Of a DNA stretch of 20,191 nt, positions 13,302 to 20,191 are shown piece after piece (position 1 is the first letter of the stretch; every line of letters begins with the position of its first letter). The stretch is from a virus. The position numbers and the translations under genes are program-made. The notes beneath the pieces are model-generated. The model did not search any database. It was not told the origin of the DNA and saw only the letters and a program-made list of their open reading frames with translations. The DNA lies in IMG/VR virus record IMGVR_UViG_3300034812_000008, positions 1 to 20,191 of that record; one strand, 5' to 3'.

Positions 13302-14627
13302 TTAGAATCCAGAGTAAAAGAATTGTTGTTGTCTTGTTAACCCAGTGAGGTTGTTTGCTCCGATACCTGCACCGAATGTAACGTCATCAACAGTAACGTT
13401 TTCAGTAGATAGGAGTGTGGCATCAGCGTCAGGGAACTTAATCACTCTCGGACCTGTAATACCTTCAGCAGACAGTGTAATCTGTCCACTAACATTTCCA
13501 GTTGATTTAACTACTGGATTGTTCAAACTCTTGTTAAAGAGTTCTGCTGCAGACTTCTCAGTAATGAGCATGTTATATGTGTCTGCACCTCTATTTAGAC
13601 TGTCCGTGTTTGGGAATCTAAAAACTTCGCTTGTTGATGTGTTTACGTTAGCAAGGTTAAACGAAACCTTCTTAGTTGTATCAGTATTGTCCGTAAAGAT
13701 TGCGTTCTCATAACTCTTGTTAGAGAGTGTTTGAGTTGTAGTTGTACCAACAAACGTTAATGATAAATCAGGAACAGTAAGGATCCTGTTTGCAGTTAGA
13801 GCAGACGTATTAAAGATAGCATAGTTAGTTGCTGTCTCAGCGTTTGCTGCCAACTTCAGATCTACAATAGTTTTATTAAGTGTAGTCTGTTCTGATTTTG
13901 TATCAAGTAAAGTAGATGCAGTTGCAGTAGGTTCTGCAGTAGTTGTTACTGTACCTGCGTCAGGTAAGAAGTAAGAACGTCTTGCACCTGATGTAGTTGG
14001 CCAGTTGATTTGGAAGATTGCTTCCTCTGTACCATCTACAAGAACAAAGTTGTCTTCATCAATAAGAAGTGTTTTATTCGTCAGTGTTTGTTGAGTATCA
14101 GCACCAACAACAGTAGTTCCGTTACCAGAAGTAATAGCAGGGAGAGTGAAGATACGAGTGTTAGTACCAGTACCAACGTTACTAACTTCAAATCTTGCCT
14201 TTGGACCTTGAGCATCTTCTAAGATGAAGGTCTGGTCAGAGATAAGGAAGTTACCCGTAACTTTTACAGCACCCGTACCTTTCGGTGCGAGCACAATATC
14301 AGTATTGTTTGCGACATCATCAACCGCAGTAATGTACAGAGATGTACTACTGTTTCCATTATCAATTCGAGTACAGTAAAATCCACCATCACCGAAGGCA
14401 ATGCCGAGTTGATCGTATGCATTCTGATACAATCCACTGTCTCTATCTAAGTCAAAACATAATCCAGGGGATGCTTTAGTTCCCTGTGCCAGTCCCTTAA
14501 ATAACTGATTTATCTTTGCTTTTCTGTTTGGAATCAAGGGATCCGACACCACCACAGGAAGAATCGCTTCTCCAGACAGGTTAGCGTCCGATATAGTCTC
14601 CAGTTGTGAAATCTTTCTGGTTCCCAC
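13302..14627 (-). CDS. Tail fibre protein with internal repeats, 441 aa, GTG start
   Basis: The N-terminal domain (~1-130) opens 'GTRKISQLETISDANLSGEA' and carries 'FDLDRDSGLYQ', both typical of phage fibre or baseplate-connected proteins. From ~145 to ~400 there are degenerate repeats of about 52-67 residues. Each has an 'F..lP/FP' strand and an '(T/S)L.NK' turn; the NK pairs are at 184, 251, 303 and 365. Such repeats usually build elongated trimeric shafts. The C-terminus is 'LTGLTRQQQFFYSGF'. The start at 14627 is GTG with no clear Shine-Dalgarno. A well-placed late promoter 28 nt upstream and the lack of an in-frame ATG nearby favour it. It heads the large structural block. Confidence 0.85.
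   Translation of the reverse strand: MGTRKISQLETISDANLSGEAILPVVVSDPLIPNRKAKINQLFKGLAQGTKASPGLCFDLDRDSGLYQNAYDQLGIAFGDGGFYCTRIDNGNSSTSLYITAVDDVANNTDIVLAPKGTGAVKVTGNFLISDQTFILEDAQGPKARFEVSNVGTGTNTRIFTLPAITSGNGTTVVGADTQQTLTNKTLLIDEDNFVLVDGTEEAIFQINWPTTSGARRSYFLPDAGTVTTTAEPTATASTLLDTKSEQTTLNKTIVDLKLAANAETATNYAIFNTSALTANRILTVPDLSLTFVGTTTTQTLSNKSYENAIFTDNTDTTKKVSFNLANVNTSTSEVFRFPNTDSLNRGADTYNMLITEKSAAELFNKSLNNPVVKSTGNVSGQITLSAEGITGPRVIKFPDADATLLSTENVTVDDVTFGAGIGANNLTGLTRQQQFFYSGF
13422..14180 (-). repeat. Degenerate protein-level tandem repeats in the fibre shaft
   Basis: Four repeat units in the 441-aa protein carry NK dipeptides at residues 184, 251, 303 and 365. Each is preceded by an aromatic-Leu/Phe-Pro strand at about 162, 221, 285 and 339, with a final one at 399. 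The repeats are visible only in protein, not as DNA repeats. Confidence 0.55.
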
Positions 14628-14654
14628 GAATAATCACACTATTTGATACAGTTT

Positions 14655-14662
14655 TATTTATA
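14655..14662 (-). promoter_or_regulatory. Late promoter, TATAAATA (exact T4 consensus)
   Basis: TATAAATA lies in the 42-nt gap between the 220-aa and 441-aa genes, 28 nt upstream of the GTG start. It is the full T4 late -10 consensus recognised by the gp55 sigma factor, and the best copy in the window. Confidence 0.8.
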
Positions 14663-14669
14663 AAGGTTA

Positions 14670-15332
14670 TTAAAGGTCTGATTCTTTAACCTCTTCTTCA
14701 GTTCGATATGCCCACTCTTCCGTATGTCCGACAGACCACCACTTAGGTAGAGTTTCTACAGCATAATTCTGTGTACATACCTTAAAGTCAGGTCGTTTGA
14801 GGTTATCATTATCAACCAAACTATTATCAAAGAACTGACATCTATTGTTAGGTTGTGCAGCAAACTGTCCGTTGTCTAGTGCAATGACATTGAATGTCTT
14901 ATGCTCTGGATCATGCTCCGAGAAGTTTGTATCTAATACAGAGAAGTCAGGATGTGCAGTATCAATCGTAAACTCATACTCACCTGGGTGCATTTTCTTG
15001 TCTTTACCATAGAAAGAACATCTACCTAGGATAGGTTTTTCTACCACAGTAATATTATAGTCAAAACAATCCCAGAGTTCTAATACATCAAGGGGTAACT
15101 GATCATCCCAGTCAATATCCTCTTTCCATACAAATGCACTGAGTGGCAACTTATCGAAGAGTGCACCATAATCAGTAAGCAATGTCTCAAAATATAATGC
15201 TTTTGCTTGAATAGAACGAACAGAGATCCAGATTCCTGGGGTAAGTTCTCCATGTCCCTTTTCAAGATCATAAAGATATTCTTTCTTCACCCAGACTTTT
15301 CTAGGTGGTAGAGGATGAACTAGGTATGCCAT
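14670..15332 (-). CDS. Conserved-looking hypothetical protein, 220 aa
   Basis: The protein is acidic and rich in Trp, Tyr and Phe: 'HPLPPRKVWVKKEYLYD' near the N-terminus, then 'GELTPGIWISVRSIQAKALYF', and 'KWWSVGHTEEWAYRTEE' near the C-terminus. There is no membrane segment or known catalytic motif. I recall similar proteins in T4-like cyanophages near tail genes, but no function. Its ATG overlaps the stop of the 115-aa gene (TAATG), so the two are probably translated together. The placement before the fibre block suggests a late, possibly virion-associated protein, but this is only context. Confidence 0.85.
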   Translation of the reverse strand: MAYLVHPLPPRKVWVKKEYLYDLEKGHGELTPGIWISVRSIQAKALYFETLLTDYGALFDKLPLSAFVWKEDIDWDDQLPLDVLELWDCFDYNITVVEKPILGRCSFYGKDKKMHPGEYEFTIDTAHPDFSVLDTNFSEHDPEHKTFNVIALDNGQFAAQPNNRCQFFDNSLVDNDNLKRPDFKVCTQNYAVETLPKWWSVGHTEEWAYRTEEEVKESDL

Positions 15333-15679
15333 TAAGAATAATAAGATTCAACTACAACCCCCTCTTCAAATGTAACCATGCACCGAGGGGTTGGTGCGTA
15401 GTGAACTCCCCATTTTGCAGGATAGAGTTCTAACTGTTTAGATAGTAGATAAGGTGCTACCTTTCCATGATTGGTGCTTTTTGCAACTTTAATACAATCA
15501 GCATCTTCAAAGACATAGGTTCCAGAATAATCAATATTCCAGAGTTTACCTTTTGGGTCGATGTAATATTGACTCATGAATCCCTCAAGATCCTGAGTTC
15601 GTAACTCTCGATTCCAGAATCCTGGACCGAGGTCAAACTGTGAGTATATTATATCATAGATTCCCATAGGTGTCAGCAT
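15332..15679 (-). CDS. Hypothetical protein, 115 aa (111 aa if the second ATG is used)
   Basis: The function is unknown. 'MGIYDIIYSQFDLGPGFWNREL' is followed by 'YYIDPKGKLWNIDYSGTY', giving a compact, aromatic-rich alpha/beta protein. The second ATG, at 15667, gives a start (MGIYD) like those of related-looking cyanophage proteins I recall. It would also leave room for a leader if the TAAATAAT box at 15684-15691 is a late promoter. The first ATG, at 15679, is listed as the outer limit. Neither has a Shine-Dalgarno. The gene lies 13 nt downstream of the tRNA and is coupled by TAATG to the 220-aa gene. Confidence 0.8.
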   Translation of the reverse strand: MLTPMGIYDIIYSQFDLGPGFWNRELRTQDLEGFMSQYYIDPKGKLWNIDYSGTYVFEDADCIKVAKSTNHGKVAPYLLSKQLELYPAKWGVHYAPTPRCMVTFEEGVVVESYYS

Positions 15680-15683
15680 TTTG

Positions 15684-15691
15684 ATTATTTA
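15684..15691 (-). promoter_or_regulatory. Weak late-promoter-like box, TAAATAAT
   Basis: CTAAATAAT lies between the tRNA and the 115-aa gene. It shares TAAATAAT with the other late sites but lacks the full NATAAATA. If used, transcription would start near 15677, favouring the ATG at 15667. Confidence 0.3.
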
Positions 15692-15692
15692 G

Positions 15693-15775
15693 TAGGAGTG
15701 GGGGGACTTGAACCCCCACGACTCAAGGTCAACAGATTTTAAGTCTGGTGCGTCTACCGATTCCGCCACACTCCC
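15693..15775 (-). tRNA. trnL: tRNA-Leu(UAA)
   Basis: The minus strand folds as a class II tRNA of about 83 nt. The acceptor stem is GGGAGTG paired with CACTCCT (G1-U72 wobble), and the discriminator is A. The D-arm contains GGCGGAATCGGTAGACGC. The anticodon loop is CTTAAAA with anticodon TAA at 15739-15741. The T-arm is GGGGG-TTCAAGT-CCCCC. A short variable arm (TTGACCTTGAGTCGT) fits a leucine tRNA. The 27-43 pair is a C-U mismatch. CCA is not encoded. Host cyanobacterial tRNA-Leu(UAA) genes usually carry a group I intron in the anticodon; this copy does not. It would supply UUA decoding, a codon favoured by AT-rich phages. Confidence 0.95.
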
Positions 15776-15885
15776 AGTTTTTTCTTCAATGCTTGCAACC
15801 TTTTCTTGGCAGCACGAAGTGCCTGAGGTTTAAGATGCCTCTTTTGCTCCTTCTTTGAATGGTGCTGCCAGTTTGGTAGTTTCAT
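15754..15885 (-). CDS. Small basic protein, 43 aa, running into the tRNA
   Basis: The ATG at 15885 forms an ATGA overlap with the preceding gene. The product begins MKLPNWQHHSKKEQ and continues 'RHLKPQALRAAKKRLQALKKK', strongly Lys/Arg-rich and probably one amphipathic helix. The last codons (GVWRNR) and the TAG stop are read from the 5' part of the tRNA-Leu gene, a 22-nt overlap. Too small for a known domain; nucleic-acid binding is a possibility from charge alone. The coupled start and protein-like codons make it credible. Confidence 0.65.
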   Translation of the reverse strand: MKLPNWQHHSKKEQKRHLKPQALRAAKKRLQALKKKLGVWRNR

Positions 15886-16124
15886 AAGTTTGTAACCAGT
15901 TCGTAGGTTCCCTCATAATCGACAAAAATTATTTTGTTAAAATCCCTGAGTTTTTGAAGAAGAAATGAACACTGTTCATCAGGGGTTTTACTTTTAGTGA
16001 TAGTACGCAATTCCCTCATAAAAACTCTATCTCTCAATAAATGTTGACGTTTGAATCGAAGAACGTTTTTTCTGTGAACATATCTTTTCAGTATGTTATT
16101 GAAATTAGACTCCTGTTTAGTCAT
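15882..16124 (-). CDS. Hypothetical basic protein, 80 aa
   Basis: The function is unknown. The N-terminal ~45 residues are very basic and helical (ILKRYVHRKNVLRFKRQHLL). The C-terminal part is more mixed (DFNKIIFVDYEGTYEL). There is no membrane or signal segment. The start at 16124 (MTKQESNFNN) is chosen because its ATG overlaps the metallopeptidase stop as ATGA; an in-frame ATG nine codons upstream is less likely. It is coupled in turn to the 43-aa gene. Confidence 0.75.
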   Translation of the reverse strand: MTKQESNFNNILKRYVHRKNVLRFKRQHLLRDRVFMRELRTITKSKTPDEQCSFLLQKLRDFNKIIFVDYEGTYELVTNL

Positions 16125-16804
16125 TTGATGTACCCATTTTCTTCTAACCATTGACGAGTCAAAGGAGTAGGTTCATAATCAGACCACATTGTACCACGAG
16201 CACAAGACTCAAGTGCTCTCTGAGTCATACCTCCAGTTTTTCCTGCCCAAGTTGCTTCTTTTTCCCAAGGAATAGCGTGAGGCATATCTTTGTATGCACT
16301 CTTTGCCATATCTTGCCAGATCTGAGGAACATCTTCCTCTGGTTTGATAATAGCAATCATGTTATTCTCGATAGTACCTGCCATACAATCTTGAGCAGCG
16401 TGCCATCCTTCATGACGCATTACACTCATCAGAACATGAGGACGACGCACAAATGTTCTGTTCAAAAAGAAGTTGTTACTCACAGTATGATAGACACCAC
16501 GATGTCCAACTGGGAAATACTTTTCATCAGCAAGGTAAACTTCCACACCAATCTTCTTGAGAGCAATCATCATGTAATCAAACTCATCTTTCACCACATC
16601 CCAATGAGACATTGGAAATGCATTCTTAAGATCGAGAGATGAGTTAATCCTCTCAACATCATCAGTACATTCTTTAAGAAGCATACATCCCATGGAATGA
16701 TTACTATAGTAGTCCTCATTTTTAATAGGATCTGCCATCACTGGTGCCATACCATGCGCCATTCCAAACATCAGTCCAGAAAGAATTACATTACGGAGTT
16801 TCAT
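16121..16804 (-). CDS. Exported HEGWH zinc-metallopeptidase-like protein, 227 aa
   Basis: The N-terminus has a Sec-type signal: MKLR, a hydrophobic stretch 'NVILSGLMFGMAHGMAP', and a likely cleavage site after VMA (residue 24). The mature part carries HEGWH at 131-135, the HExxH zinc-binding and catalytic motif. E181 or E183 in 'WEKEATWAG' could be a third ligand, as in gluzincins. Four cysteines (40, 46, 140, 201) could form two disulfides outside the cytoplasm. The expected site of action is the periplasm or cell envelope, or the virion. The substrate is unknown; wall or surface-protein cleavage at lysis or superinfection exclusion are both possible. The gene sits inside the chain of coupled small genes rather than with fibres. 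I recall HExxH proteins like this from cyanomyoviruses. Confidence 0.8.
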   Translation of the reverse strand: MKLRNVILSGLMFGMAHGMAPVMADPIKNEDYYSNHSMGCMLLKECTDDVERINSSLDLKNAFPMSHWDVVKDEFDYMMIALKKIGVEVYLADEKYFPVGHRGVYHTVSNNFFLNRTFVRRPHVLMSVMRHEGWHAAQDCMAGTIENNMIAIIKPEEDVPQIWQDMAKSAYKDMPHAIPWEKEATWAGKTGGMTQRALESCARGTMWSDYEPTPLTRQWLEENGYIK

Positions 16805-16946
16805 ATGTAGGGTGGTGAAACATACAGTATTCGTTGAAGGTGATTTTCATCTCCTTATTGGTCAGTTTACAATGTTTTGCTGCTTTTGGCAAGTTCCATT
16901 TAGCATGAAATAACATTTCCATTGCATGTCTAGTCTCAGGTCTCAT
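16791..16946 (-). CDS. Small hypothetical protein, 51 aa
   Basis: The sequence begins MRPETRHAMEMLFHAKWNL and continues 'KAAKHCKLTNKEMKITFNEY'. The two helices around the turn 'PKAAKHCKLTNKEM' resemble a helix-turn-helix, as in small DNA-binding proteins, but it is too short to be sure. I recall similar short proteins in cyanophages. Its start overlaps the zinc-ribbon stop as ATGA and its end overlaps the metallopeptidase start by 14 nt. Both overlaps support translation. Confidence 0.7.
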   Translation of the reverse strand: MRPETRHAMEMLFHAKWNLPKAAKHCKLTNKEMKITFNEYCMFHHPTYETP

Positions 16947-17101
16947 TTCTTATCAGCGATTCTTAGTTGATGATAAACAAGTACAAATGCGTCACATCGA
17001 GGGCAACTTAGATTGGTTTCAATCTCATATTCATAACCCTCTGGGGTATCATTATCTCCACCCCAAATAAGATTTGGAAATCCGCATGACCAACAGTTCA
17101 T
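16943..17101 (-). CDS. Zinc-ribbon protein, 52 aa (CxxC...CxxC)
   Basis: 'MNCWSCGF' (C3, C6) and 'LSCPRCDAF' (C33, C36) form two CxxC knuckles 26 residues apart, the classic spacing for a one-zinc ribbon. The 'WGGDNDTPEGYEYEIETNL' loop lies between them. The C-terminus (VYHQLRIADKK) is mildly basic. The role could be binding nucleic acid or modulating a host protein such as RNA polymerase; neither is demonstrated. The ATG overlaps the stop of the 27-aa peptide as ATGA, and its own stop overlaps the next start the same way. Confidence 0.75.
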   Translation of the reverse strand: MNCWSCGFPNLIWGGDNDTPEGYEYEIETNLSCPRCDAFVLVYHQLRIADKK

Positions 17102-17181
17102 TTCTTAAACACTCCCAACTTTGCAAGAATGTATACTCCCAGAACTGTCCAGAATACGATTTCCAATCCTATGTTATTCAC
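17098..17181 (-). CDS. 27-aa single-span membrane peptide, GTG start
   Basis: The GTG at 17181 follows a GGAGG with 6-nt spacing, the best ribosome site in the cassette. The peptide is M-NNIGLE, a ~15-residue hydrophobic span 'IVFWTVLGVYILAKLGV', then FKK. The positive tail suggests an N-out, C-in inner-membrane microprotein. The start overlaps the end of the 72-aa gene by 8 nt, and the stop overlaps the zinc-ribbon start as ATGA. Possible roles include lysis control or host membrane modulation; none can be assigned from sequence. Confidence 0.65.
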   Translation of the reverse strand: MNNIGLEIVFWTVLGVYILAKLGVFKK

Positions 17182-17392
17182 TCTGTGCCTCCATAAATGA
17201 TTTTTTAAACTCTTCTACCTGATTTTGAATCTCTTCTGGAACAGGTGGAACTTCATTGACAGGAACTAGCATAGCAGACTTCCCGTCAGGACGGGTGACT
17301 TTCCAACACACATGTTGTTGATCACACAGATCCAAAATAAAGTCAAAATGATCCTCTGCTTGTCGCAGAGTAATTCCAATAGGTCCAATCAT
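17174..17392 (-). CDS. Hypothetical protein, 72 aa
   Basis: The function is unknown. It begins MIGPIGITLRQAEDHFDFIL. A central 'CDQQHVCWKVTRPDGKSAMLVP' could be a beta hairpin with two cysteines (C23, C29). An acidic helical tail follows (EEIQNQVEEFKKSFMEAQ). The start at 17392 is chosen over an ATG five codons upstream because it forms an ATGA overlap with the preceding gene. Confidence 0.75.
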   Translation of the reverse strand: MIGPIGITLRQAEDHFDFILDLCDQQHVCWKVTRPDGKSAMLVPVNEVPPVPEEIQNQVEEFKKSFMEAQSE

Positions 17393-17586
17393 ACTTCTGC
17401 AAAACAATAAGTGATCATGTCTGGGTCAAGTTCATCTTGAATAGCACTGACGACTTCAACGAAACCTTCAGCACCTTCTTTGTTCCACATCCAATCGACT
17501 ACACGATCGTGCCCCTCGTTGTCCAAGAGTTTTACAGATCGCTTAGAAAAGTCAATAAAGACGTGTTGTAGGTAGGTGTTGTTCAT
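17389..17586 (-). CDS. Hypothetical protein, 65 aa, first gene after a sigma70 promoter
   Basis: The function is unknown. It begins MNNTYLQHVFIDFSKRSVKL and is a small, mixed-charge protein. The ATG at 17586 is preceded by AGGAG four bases upstream, and the promoter start site lies ~13 nt before it. A frame extension up to 17643 would read through the promoter and is rejected. It is the first of eight overlapping genes. Confidence 0.8.
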   Translation of the reverse strand: MNNTYLQHVFIDFSKRSVKLLDNEGHDRVVDWMWNKEGAEGFVEVVSAIQDELDPDMITYCFAEV

Positions 17587-17605
17587 AAATCTCCTGTACC
17601 TATGT

Positions 17606-17634
17606 AGTATAGCAGACCACCCTGTGCCTGTCAA
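17606..17634 (-). promoter_or_regulatory. Near-consensus sigma70 promoter, TTGACA-N17-TATACT
   Basis: The -35 TTGACA (17634-17629) is exact, the spacer is the optimal 17 nt, and the -10 TATACT (17611-17606) has one mismatch. The start should be near 17599, followed by AGGAG and the ATG at 17586. The stop of the 54-aa gene lies inside the -35. This resembles the early promoters of T4-like cyanophages, which use host sigma70-type RNA polymerase. Confidence 0.85.
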
Positions 17635-17795
17635 GGTCCCCAATAATCTTCTTCGGGGATACCCAAATACTTATACACTGCAACGTGTAGTTCCCAATAA
17701 CGAAGATACCAATCGGGAATCAATCCATACATCGGAAGTTCATGATAATCATCCTCATTTTGAATGAGCATTTTAGTCAAGGTTTCTTTATCCAT
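17631..17795 (-). CDS. Hypothetical protein, 54 aa, just after the hub gene
   Basis: The sequence runs MDKETLTKMLIQNEDDYHEL, then 'PDWYLRYWELHVAVYKYLGI', ending 'EEDYWGP'. It is rich in Tyr, Trp and acidic residues and is probably mostly helical. No motif is recognised. The ATG at 17795 follows the hub stop by 3 nt, so it is probably translated with the hub on the late transcript. Its stop codon is part of the -35 of the following promoter. No clear Shine-Dalgarno is seen. Confidence 0.7.
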   Translation of the reverse strand: MDKETLTKMLIQNEDDYHELPMYGLIPDWYLRYWELHVAVYKYLGIPEEDYWGP

Positions 17796-17798
17796 AAA

Positions 17799-20191
17799 TT
17801 AATTCAAGAAGATAGTCTTAGCAGTCAGTTTCATGACTCCACCTGCTGTCAGTGACATGGCACCCTTAGTAGCAGTGACGCTTACAGCACCCTTCAGAGC
17901 AGTCATATTGATAACTCCTTTGACCACGTTCACATTGTGTGCACCCTCTAGAACTTGTTGATTATATCCTGTTAGACCACAAGTCATTGATACAGGACCA
18001 GTAGGATTCAACAATTTATTATATGGGTAAGGAATAGTCTTGGATGGGTTTTGTGTAGTTGTAATATTACCATGGCAAAGAGTATAGATCCCTGGTGCAG
18101 CAACCATAGATGTTGCTTCTGTATTGATCATTTGATTCAAGACAGGAGTTAAGATATTGATAACACTATTACCTGTAGCAATAATCTCATTACCAGTCAT
18201 CTTCTGAACTTTGTATGAGTTTTCAAAGGTAGATCCAGTAAACTTCATGTTTGGTGCACCGAATCCAAATTCTGCTGCCTGTAATTCCATCTTAGCACCT
18301 GCAGTTTTGATATCTACATCAGATGCAAATGTAATTTGGTGCTTCTGAATCTTCTCACTCTTCTTCTTACCGTTTCTATCTACTGTCTTAGGTGCACCTT
18401 CAGCAGCAAAGAAGAATCCACCACCAACTTCAATGTGGCAATCACCAGTAACTTTCAAACGATAGTCACCTTCAACGTTTACCACCTTATCACCATCAAC
18501 AGTAGCACAGTCATCACCCATAACATCTACAGTGTGATTACCTGCGTATGCAGAGTGATCAGCAACTAAGTTACCTGTGTCATCTTTACTACCGCCCCTG
18601 TTTGCTTTTTTATATTCTTCTGTTTTTTTCGCCAGTTCTTCGTCAGAAATATCGGGATTTTGGGATTTTACTTGTTTTTTATAAGTCCACTCTGCAAAAG
18701 TATTGTTATTAATATTATAAGAAGAGTGAGTCGTTCCACTAGGTTCTTTGACAACGTGTGCCTGACGACCTGGGGTTCCTACATGATGATCATATCCACC
18801 ATCAACAAATGTTTTTGCTACTTGTAAATATGGATCTGCTTTTGTGAAGATTTGATCTAAAACACCGTTTGCTGCTTCTGATCCTCCACCACTTGAGTTA
18901 CAACTTCCTCTATTACTGCCTCGAATTTTGTTGATTGCTTCTAGTTCTTCATCACTACAGTTTGTGACACCGAATAGTGGGAAGTATCCATGATTATCTT
19001 TACCACCATCAGGTTTTCTATCACAACCACCACCAATAAACTTAACAAACAGAGCAAGTAAACCTGCAAGACCAGAAAGTCCATTTTGGAACATGTCAGA
19101 TCCACCATCAAAGATGCCAGTTCCTTTTTCCCAACTGCTGATGATCTCATCAACACCTGCAACCGCACTAGTTGCTGATTTTACTGTGTTGATAACACTC
19201 TTAAGTTGATCAAGAACTTTCTGTACAGAGCAAACAATACTATCAATAGTATCTTGAACACCCTGTACTACCATTTGTGCTTTGCTGATAGCACCGCTAA
19301 GTAAACTTTCAATACCACTCTGAATAGCGGAAACAGGGTCTTGAATAAAGTTAGTGATTTCACTATCAAAAATACAGAGAGATGACAAAATCTGAGTCAC
19401 TGCCTGTGTAATAACTTCCATTTGTGCAAACGGAACCCCTGGTGCTAATTTACTAAAATCCAGTGCACCACCAACTTTTTCAGCAAGTTGTGATGTTGCT
19501 TCTCTAATTGCAGAGACGATTTGAGAGAAGATAGCACCTAGGAAGTTTTGTAGTTTTGCTGTAAGTTTTTCAATAGTTACAACTTTACCAGATACAATGT
19601 CAATAAAGTTACCATCTTCTGTTGCAACAAGTGTACCTGCAGTATCTGCAACGTCTTCAATAAGATAGTTTAACTTAGATTCCACAGACTTCCATGGACC
19701 ACCTACACCATTAGCAGTAGCGATTGGTTTACTAGGAGATCTTGGTTTTGCAGTGTTACCTGCACTTCCTGGGAGGTGTACACCTACATTATTAGGTGAT
19801 CCTGGACCTGCAGGTTCTGGAGATACCTCACTTCCAGGGAGTTTGACAGCATTTGATCCAGAAGCATTTTCTTTATTATTAATATCAATACTATTAGGAT
19901 CTGCAGTTCTTCTAAGTGCAGGATTCACCGTGCCTGGACTTCCATCCTCCATGTTTTCACCTGTAAGGGTGAAGTTATGTTTTTTACTCTTTCCTTTCTG
20001 AATGCGTAAAACACCGATAACAATCGGCATTTGAGCAGATTCTCCATCCATGAAGAATCCCATAACAATGGCACCAGGCTGCAGTTGTCCTGCACTTTCA
20101 CCTTGTCCATCGTTACCTGCTTGACATGCGTGTTGTAATACTGTTGCCCATGGTAAATTATCAGTAGGTAGGTCAGCAACTGTACCTCCTC
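17799..20191 (-). CDS. gp5: Baseplate hub subunit/tail spike, gp5-like (5' end outside window), 796 visible aa
   Basis: The frame is open through the window edge, with codons from 20189. The first ~65 visible residues ('NLPWATVLQHACQAG', 'QLQPGAIVMGFFMDG', 'MPIVIGVLR') fit the OB-fold of T4 gp5. A Pro/Gly-rich linker follows. Residues ~170-370 are a long helical region ('SQIVSAIREATSQLAEKVGG', 'VLDQLKSVINTVKSATSA'). Residues ~549-590 have octapeptide V.G repeats (VDVMGDD, VNVEGDY, LKVTGDC), the hallmark of the gp5 beta-helix needle. The last ~48 residues have a nine-residue 'GA...TA.K' repeat. No lysozyme catalytic segment is seen between the OB-fold and the needle, where T4 gp5 has it. As the central tail hub, it pierces the outer membrane. 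It appears to be followed by late and early small genes. Confidence 0.85.
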   Translation of the reverse strand, partial: GGTVADLPTDNLPWATVLQHACQAGNDGQGESAGQLQPGAIVMGFFMDGESAQMPIVIGVLRIQKGKSKKHNFTLTGENMEDGSPGTVNPALRRTADPNSIDINNKENASGSNAVKLPGSEVSPEPAGPGSPNNVGVHLPGSAGNTAKPRSPSKPIATANGVGGPWKSVESKLNYLIEDVADTAGTLVATEDGNFIDIVSGKVVTIEKLTAKLQNFLGAIFSQIVSAIREATSQLAEKVGGALDFSKLAPGVPFAQMEVITQAVTQILSSLCIFDSEITNFIQDPVSAIQSGIESLLSGAISKAQMVVQGVQDTIDSIVCSVQKVLDQLKSVINTVKSATSAVAGVDEIISSWEKGTGIFDGGSDMFQNGLSGLAGLLALFVKFIGGGCDRKPDGGKDNHGYFPLFGVTNCSDEELEAINKIRGSNRGSCNSSGGGSEAANGVLDQIFTKADPYLQVAKTFVDGGYDHHVGTPGRQAHVVKEPSGTTHSSYNINNNTFAEWTYKKQVKSQNPDISDEELAKKTEEYKKANRGGSKDDTGNLVADHSAYAGNHTVDVMGDDCATVDGDKVVNVEGDYRLKVTGDCHIEVGGGFFFAAEGAPKTVDRNGKKKSEKIQKHQITFASDVDIKTAGAKMELQAAEFGFGAPNMKFTGSTFENSYKVQKMTGNEIIATGNSVINILTPVLNQMINTEATSMVAAPGIYTLCHGNITTTQNPSKTIPYPYNKLLNPTGPVSMTCGLTGYNQQVLEGAHNVNVVKGVINMTALKGAVSVTATKGAMSLTAGGVMKLTAKTIFLN
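17802..17945 (-). repeat. Nine-residue C-terminal repeat of the hub protein
   Basis: Residues 749-796 read as GAHNVNVVK, GVINMTALK, GAVSVTATK and GAMSLTAGG followed by a terminal strand. This is a second, different beta-type repeat at the expected tip of the needle. Confidence 0.6.
18420..18545 (-). repeat. gp5-type octapeptide repeat region (protein level)
   Basis: About five copies of an eight-residue unit with a V.G core occur in tandem: VDVMGDD, ATVDGDK, VNVEGDY, LKVTGDC and IEVGGG. In T4 gp5 this VxGxxxxx octad forms the triple-stranded beta-helix of the cell-puncturing needle. Confidence 0.7.

Follow-up and report, generated by a model that had tools for sequence, protein, structure and literature searches.

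Why should a run of small, overlapping genes with an early-type promoter of its own lie inside the late structural block of a cyanomyovirus? We addressed this question in a 20.2-kb virus record (IMG/VR IMGVR_UViG_3300034812_000008, positions 1 to 20,191; this whole stretch of DNA is hereafter called the window). It belongs to a cyanomyovirus whose nearest relative is Prochlorococcus phage P-RSM1 (97.1% identical at the DNA level across 88% of a 3.4-kb query, in a search that may leave out records very near the window). All genes discussed are on the minus strand. Directly beside the gene of the baseplate hub and tail lysozyme gp5, and bounded by gp5 and a virion gene, lies an island of small genes (14670-17795). 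We consider it probable that this gp5 island is a known variable hot-spot organised as a transcription cassette of its own, entered through a host-type promoter and followed by a restart of late transcription.

A sequence-only reading had described a gene of 54 amino acids (aa), a sigma70 site and eight small overlapping genes (65, 72, 27, 52, 51, 227, 80 and 43 aa) that run to a tRNA. The coordinates confirm the starts and the overlaps, which are 4 nucleotides (nt) long between the 65/72, 27/52, 52/51, 227/80 and 80/43 aa genes, 8 nt between the 72/27 aa genes and 14 nt between the 51/227 aa genes. The tRNA is not the end of the island, as had been proposed; genes of 115 and 220 aa extend it by about 1 kb, to a late-type promoter. 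At the other end, the 54-aa gene starts 3 nt past the gp5 stop. It lies upstream of the sigma70 promoter and thus more likely forms part of the gp5 transcript.

Promoter sequences at the two borders of the gp5 island

The putative sigma70-type promoter of the window matches 11 of 12 consensus positions and has TG before the -10 element; the TGA stop of the 54-aa gene falls inside its -35 element. We scored the pattern TTGACA-N16-18-TATAAT upstream of the 65-aa gene in relatives. The 65-aa family is encoded at 175 loci, of which 174 offer the 110 nt of upstream sequence, and 57 regions were left at <85% ungapped identity. The best match was 12/12 in 4 of them, 11 in 43, 10 in 3, 9 in 3, 8 in 2, 7 in 1 and 6 in 1. 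A site scoring at least 10/12 therefore precedes the same first gene in 50 of 57 relatives, a score reached by 1.2% of dinucleotide shuffles, and TG stands before the -10 element in 46 of these 50. The -35, the -10 and the TG are conserved across relatives, whereas the spacers diverge. The early-type promoter of the sequence-only reading is thus borne out as a conserved sequence. Where gp5 directly adjoins the 65-aa gene, the -35 element begins a few bases past the gp5 stop; in P-SSM7, Syn30 and P-HM2 the slot before the promoter is filled by other genes.

In 20 phage genomes, a tally of exact sigma70 sites gave 148 on the same strand as the 65-aa gene and 5 on the opposite one; a reversed-pattern control gave 14 matches. 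Eight of these 20 genomes have an exact site at the island promoter. Of the other eight exact sites in P-RSM1, some precede gp43, gp55, an hli gene and tRNA-Arg; the rest are found inside gp47 and in a small-gene block at about 10-21 kb. A second promoter-like site of the window (15676-15648) was rejected as a chance match in coding sequence: it sits within the opening codons of the 115-aa gene, and loci L003 and L030 have lost its -35 element.

At the downstream border we compared 123 loci with both flanks, which were reduced to 48 islands sharing no more than half of their 12-mers (187,092 nt in total). In all 48 non-redundant islands, NATAAATA precedes the virion-gene start, as deduced from the protein match, by 32-37 bp. 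A second copy elsewhere in the island occurs in only 10 of the 48. Both the sequence and the fixed place of this T4-type late promoter are observed; its use would presumably depend on the phage late sigma factor gp55.

Variable content between syntenic flanks

The 48 non-redundant islands range from 1277 to 6985 nt, and their content varies while the gp5 and virion-gene flanks remain syntenic; this comparison had been proposed with the sequence-only reading. Among families of the window, the 51-aa protein is found in 33 islands, the 115-aa protein in 20, the 220-aa protein in 16, and the 54-aa and 43-aa proteins in 11 each. Rarer are the 27-aa (9 islands), 227-aa (8), 52-aa (3) and 80-aa (1) families. 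A tRNA is present in 37 of 48 islands, and tRNA-Leu in 35. The same place in named phages holds 2OG-Fe(II) oxygenases, endonuclease V, glutaredoxin, CpeT and a PsbN-like protein, whose match (E 0.00074) does not reach the Pfam cut-off, among others.

The gp5 island of P-RSM1 (NC_021071, locus L002) shares gene order and promoter with that of the window and lacks the 54-aa and 80-aa genes. P-HM2, a phage given no family in its record, follows the same plan: gp5 and one gene are followed by TTTACA-17-TATACT with TG, T4-GC 29, acyl carrier protein, endonuclease V, CpeT, and TATAAATA 36 bp before a YadA-type gene. It differs in that no Phd-like gene is annotated in the island. In P-SSM2 the T4-GC 29 gene stands among tail-fibre genes, and the best promoter site scores 8/12.

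The place and the variability of the gp5 island are already published. In Sullivan et al. 2010, 'near gp5 with tRNAs' is one of four hot-spots of Synechococcus-phage genes, and sigma70 and late promoters are predicted genome-wide (PMC3037559). The window island shares with this hot-spot its place, its tRNAs and its variable small hypothetical genes; the sections consulted give no conserved sigma70 promoter at the gp5 stop, constant head genes or late-promoter border. Another variable block inside the structural module is the hyperplastic region g15-g18 of cyanomyoviruses, with 4-14 genes (Millard et al. 2009, as told in PMC2984593). It lies at another site, and carbon-metabolism and plastoquinone-related functions are among its genes, as far as that account goes. 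The sections, passages and listings searched (PMC3037559, PMC2984593, PMC6414667, PMC9964418, PMC5931967, PMC5082946, PMC7238727, PMC6722890) gave no account of a conserved promoter or a late-promoter border at the gp5 island, and the architecture described here is clearer than in the descriptions found.

Because the island lies between hub and fibre-type genes, its small proteins could be taken for accessory factors in the virion or in assembly, and their setting among structural genes would then be accounted for. Location is the one point in favour of this explanation, which we regard as very improbable. The content varies widely between conserved flanks, the 227-aa gene also occurs near psbA/psbD or elsewhere, and profile scans with Pfam, PHROGs and NCBIfam linked none of the window's island proteins to a virion family.

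Head genes and cargo of the island

Features of the window are listed in Table 1. When compared with diverged relatives, the 54-, 65-, 72-, 27-, 52-, 51-, 227- and 43-aa genes all have fewer nonsynonymous than synonymous substitutions per site (dN < dS), and seven of the eight small genes behind the promoter look protein-coding. The contrast is weakest for the 227-aa gene (dN 0.25, dS 0.73); the 54-aa gene has dN 0.15 and dS 1.06 against S-SM1. Even the 27-aa peptide shows no nonsynonymous change in 62.3 sites against locus L032, and dN 0.20 with dS 2.3 against P-TIM40. The 80-aa open reading frame (ORF) has near-identical relatives only and so falls outside this test.

Table 1. Features of the gp5 island and its flanks in the order read along the minus strand.
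Feature	Position	Strand	Evidence and remarks
gp5 baseplate hub and tail lysozyme, upstream flank	17799..20063	-	phrog_694, E 6.8e-285; frame open to the window end
54-aa gene, between gp5 and promoter	17631..17795	-	phrog_20241, E 1.7e-26
Putative sigma70-type promoter	17606..17634	-	-35 TTGACA 17634-17629; 17-nt spacer ending TGC; -10 TATACT 17611-17606
65-aa head gene	17389..17586	-	DUF7294 PF23966, E 2.8e-28; phrog_662, E 3.9e-31; T4-GC 341 or 29
72-aa second head gene, predicted Phd/YefM fold	17174..17392	-	phrog_375, E 9.7e-35; T4-GC 342
27-aa hydrophobic single-span-like peptide, GTG start	17098..17181	-	phrog_36745, E 1.3e-16
52-aa zinc-ribbon-like protein, two CxxC pairs	16943..17101	-	Pfam zinc-ribbon match weak, E 0.018
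51-aa protein	16791..16946	-	phrog_1308/1920, T4-GC 160, E 2.1e-28
227-aa protein	16121..16804	-	phrog_591 / T4-GC 945; signal-peptide-like start, HEGWH, PWExEA, four invariant Cys
80-aa basic ORF	15882..16124	-	in near-identical contigs only; K+R 17, D+E 9
43-aa very basic protein	15754..15885	-	phrog_3309, E 2.9e-16; K+R 15/43
tRNA-Leu(UAA)	15692..15775	-	ARAGORN; Rfam RF00005, 58.8 bits
115-aa gene, island member	15332..15679	-	phrog_1615 / T4-GC 755, E 6.8e-49
220-aa gene, last of island	14670..15332	-	phrog_3704 'ferredoxin' / T4-GC 171, E 1.6e-105
Candidate T4-type late promoter TATAAATA, downstream border	14655..14662	-	35 bp before the virion gene
441-aa virion structural protein, downstream flank	13302..14627	-	phrog_692 / T4-GC 344, E 2e-226

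The two head families are present in all 48 islands (46 of 48 with the window 72-aa protein as query), a count that is largely circular, since most loci were fetched via the head families. Among 14 loci fetched with gp5 alone, which are fairly close relatives, 12 were long enough and all 12 have both head genes. In P-TIM40 and S-SZBM1 the second gene matches phrog_375 (E 1.7e-7 and 2.1e-8, respectively). Matches to the 65-aa family were found in 282 phage records.

The 72-aa protein is predicted to have a Phd/YefM fold. In a comparison of its model (predicted local distance difference test, pLDDT, 89.9; predicted template modelling score 0.56) with the PDB, 49 of 50 among the matches listed were of antitoxin type, chiefly Phd and YefM, and the highest probability was 1.00. 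Pfam PF02604 was reported in 2 of 17 family members (best E 0.0084, marginal), and the 72-aa and 227-aa family profiles gave nothing credible against PDB sequences. The predicted fold and an N-terminal DNA-binding-type domain are shared with Phd/YefM antitoxins. Unlike these, the protein has a short C-terminal part and a marginal Pfam match, and a scan of its neighbours with profile libraries gave no recognised toxin beside it; the function of the adjoining 65-aa protein is uncharacterised. In cyanophage S-CREM1, YefM-, TacA- and MazE-like antitoxins were suggested by the authors to counter host toxin-antitoxin (TA) defence (PMC9964418, as far as seen in that paper).

Another role is conceivable for the 72-aa protein, namely that it is mainly the repressor of its own cassette, shutting the sigma70 promoter after the first minutes, rather than an anti-toxin. 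Autoregulation is usual for Phd/YefM proteins, and the 72-aa gene is close downstream of the promoter. Shortly past the -10, a GTA element (window 17597-17605) is kept in 40 of 47 island promoters and is island-biased: among 20 other strong sigma70 sites of S-SSM4 and S-RIM8, GGTA occurs in 2, and GTA or GTT, over a slightly wider stretch, in 7. Syn9-type promoters carry inverted repeats that fill the spacer (ACACCCT/AGGGTGT in Syn9, locus L132; ACACCGC/GCGGTGT in L138; also in L140). The inner bases of the L132 and L138 repeats differ with complementarity kept, 0 of 200 shuffles reach these repeats, and they may represent an operator. As a general feature, autoregulation via an operator palindrome gained no support: an inverted repeat at p <=0.05 was found in 3 of 47 promoters, about the chance level, and the window promoter has none. 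P-HM2, in addition, keeps the promoter without an adjoining annotated Phd-like gene. Overall, we find the repressor role unlikely and favour an orphan antitoxin-like or regulatory DNA-binding protein as the predicted character of the 72-aa product.

Behind the head genes lies the gene of the 227-aa protein, whose family has matches in 366 phage records. The signal-peptide-like start of the protein was judged by eye. The HEGWH and PWExEA motifs and four Cys are invariant in alignments of 9 and 53 sequences, although in the larger set this is partly built in, most members having been fetched with patterns that include HEGW or HAAQDC. PWExEA may supply the third, Glu, zinc ligand; which Glu is a guess. 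The model of the protein (pLDDT 84.0) has a weak likeness to zincins, the best being IrrE (Z 6.5 over 89 residues). This fold comparison covers the listed structure families, and families outside the lists are possible. Of 20 genomes, 16 have the 227-aa family. Four of them carry it in the island, seven at most two genes upstream of gp5, three no more than 0.9 kb from psbA or psbD, and two elsewhere. The three phages with the psbA or psbD neighbourhood are Syn9 (gp219, L022 8489-9142), P-TIM40 (L008 5640-6329) and S-MbCM6 (L327 8432-9103). Genes common to the gp5 island and the photosynthesis-gene islands of other phages speak for host-directed over virion roles.

A scan of bacterial and archaeal sequences for a possible host origin of the 227-aa protein, made with two short patterns that could miss distant host homologues, returned three relatives: one P-TIM40-like phage contig and two contigs of metagenome-assembled genomes (L118, L120). 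The phage contig (L119; NZ_RMVE01000006.1, 188,235 bases, from a Nonlabens xiamenensis assembly) is 98.9% identical over 8.8 kb to P-TIM40 (L008) and looks like a contaminating cyanomyovirus genome in a bacterial assembly.

Among the smaller cargo genes, the CxxC pairs of the 52-aa protein are kept in 5 of 5 sequences. RefSeq calls its counterpart in P-RSM1 (L002 5105-5263) a 'protease', a name that may rest on a 22-residue match to phrog_2816. A similarity of the 80-aa ORF to DpdD (PADLOC E 0.00045, 61 of 773 profile positions) was judged a chance match, as Pfam, PHROGs and NCBIfam gave no support. The end of the 43-aa ORF runs 22 nt into the tRNA-Leu gene (15754-15775), and L003, L006 and L032 share this overlap. 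The last eight residues of the 43-aa protein do not differ among the four sequences compared, perhaps through constraint by the tRNA gene; RNase P cleavage would remove the end of the 43-aa message. GenBank records call the 220-aa family (T4-GC 171) phosphoribosylaminoimidazole synthetase (purM), and RefSeq calls it ferredoxin. Both names look doubtful, because Pfam and NCBIfam gave no match for the 220-aa protein.

The suggestion of the sequence-only reading that the contents serve host manipulation held in part. The Phd/YefM fold, the signal-peptide-like HExxH protein, the tRNA and the location of the 227-aa gene near psbA/psbD in three phages fit such a role, while the functions themselves remain putative.

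Timing of expression and meaning of the layout

Several observations weigh against a self-contained early cassette with host-directed products. Promoter-like sites in 14000-19000 occur at chance level (16 found, 14.1 expected), so that the case for the promoter rests on the conservation of one site. Seven of the 57 relatives fall below 10/12 (L005, L009, L010, L015, L019, L021 and L177), including ACG-2014d (L015), with 9/12 once its start codon is set right. The late motif ATAAATA is likewise at chance in the whole window (6 copies, all on the minus strand, with 4.46 expected; 29 of 100 shuffles reach 6); since this count is not above chance, the fixed place of the motif is the evidence. Before gp5, NATAAATA was found in only 9 of 17 named phages. 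The auxiliary metabolic genes of P-HM2 are described in the middle cluster, not the early one (PMC5082946, in the part seen). Among the listed PDB matches of the 72-aa model, the best E value is a weak 8.9e-3 and the best Z is 6.1, none reaching 8, and the 227-aa model has no Foldseek match at E <=0.001 (best 0.078). Finally, no convincing terminator separates gp5 from the island; two terminator-like sites on the minus strand of 14000-19000 were set aside, as both lie inside coding sequence.

The lack of a convincing terminator, the common strand and the 3 nt between gp5 and the 54-aa gene would also suit an island that belongs to the late operon like any other part of it and is transcribed by read-through from gp5, with the sigma70 match a relic or a coding coincidence. 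We judge this improbable: in 50 of 57 relatives the -35, -10 and TG are conserved while the spacer diverges, and the late promoter behind the island in 48 of 48 would be needless for simple read-through. Late-only expression is accordingly less likely, and the island would probably be transcribed before the late phase, early or middle. The Syn9 transcriptome was reportedly the subject of a study by Doron et al. in 2016. For early genes, the presumed driver is the unmodified host polymerase, acting at sigma70-like sites, according to the part of the account seen (PMC2984593).

On the cassette interpretation, host RNA polymerase with the housekeeping sigma factor would start at the sigma70 promoter at the end of gp5. 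The small overlapping genes and the tRNA-Leu would then be transcribed before late transcription begins. Late in infection the island may be read again by run-through from gp5, and gp55 would restart transcription at TATAAATA, which stands 35 bp upstream of the virion gene that follows. Such a restart would let the cargo be exchanged without disturbing the virion genes. The products most likely act on the host: the HExxH protein may be a zinc peptidase exported to the periplasm or the thylakoid lumen, and the tRNA-Leu a codon supplement.

It can be speculated, with considerable reserve, that marine cyanomyoviruses widely keep a plug-in socket for early expression in the late block. Such a socket would combine a host-type promoter at the gp5 stop with a constant head (DUF7294 and the orphan Phd-like protein) that neutralises host TA defence or acts as the gate of the cassette. 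The host-directed cargo would be exchangeable, one item being an exported peptidase with targets among envelope or thylakoid-lumen proteins, and a late promoter would insulate the virion genes.

The present analysis turns a loosely described hot-spot into a precise layout, with a fixed promoter in, a fixed late promoter out and free cargo between. This layout may serve as a rule for picking candidate host-takeover genes from hundreds of cyanophage genomes. The first targets would be the widespread HExxH protein and two small proteins, DUF7294 and the Phd-like protein, both widespread and uncharacterised. Given the psbA/psbD neighbourhood in three phages, a thylakoid-lumen substrate is a candidate idea for the 227-aa HExxH family.

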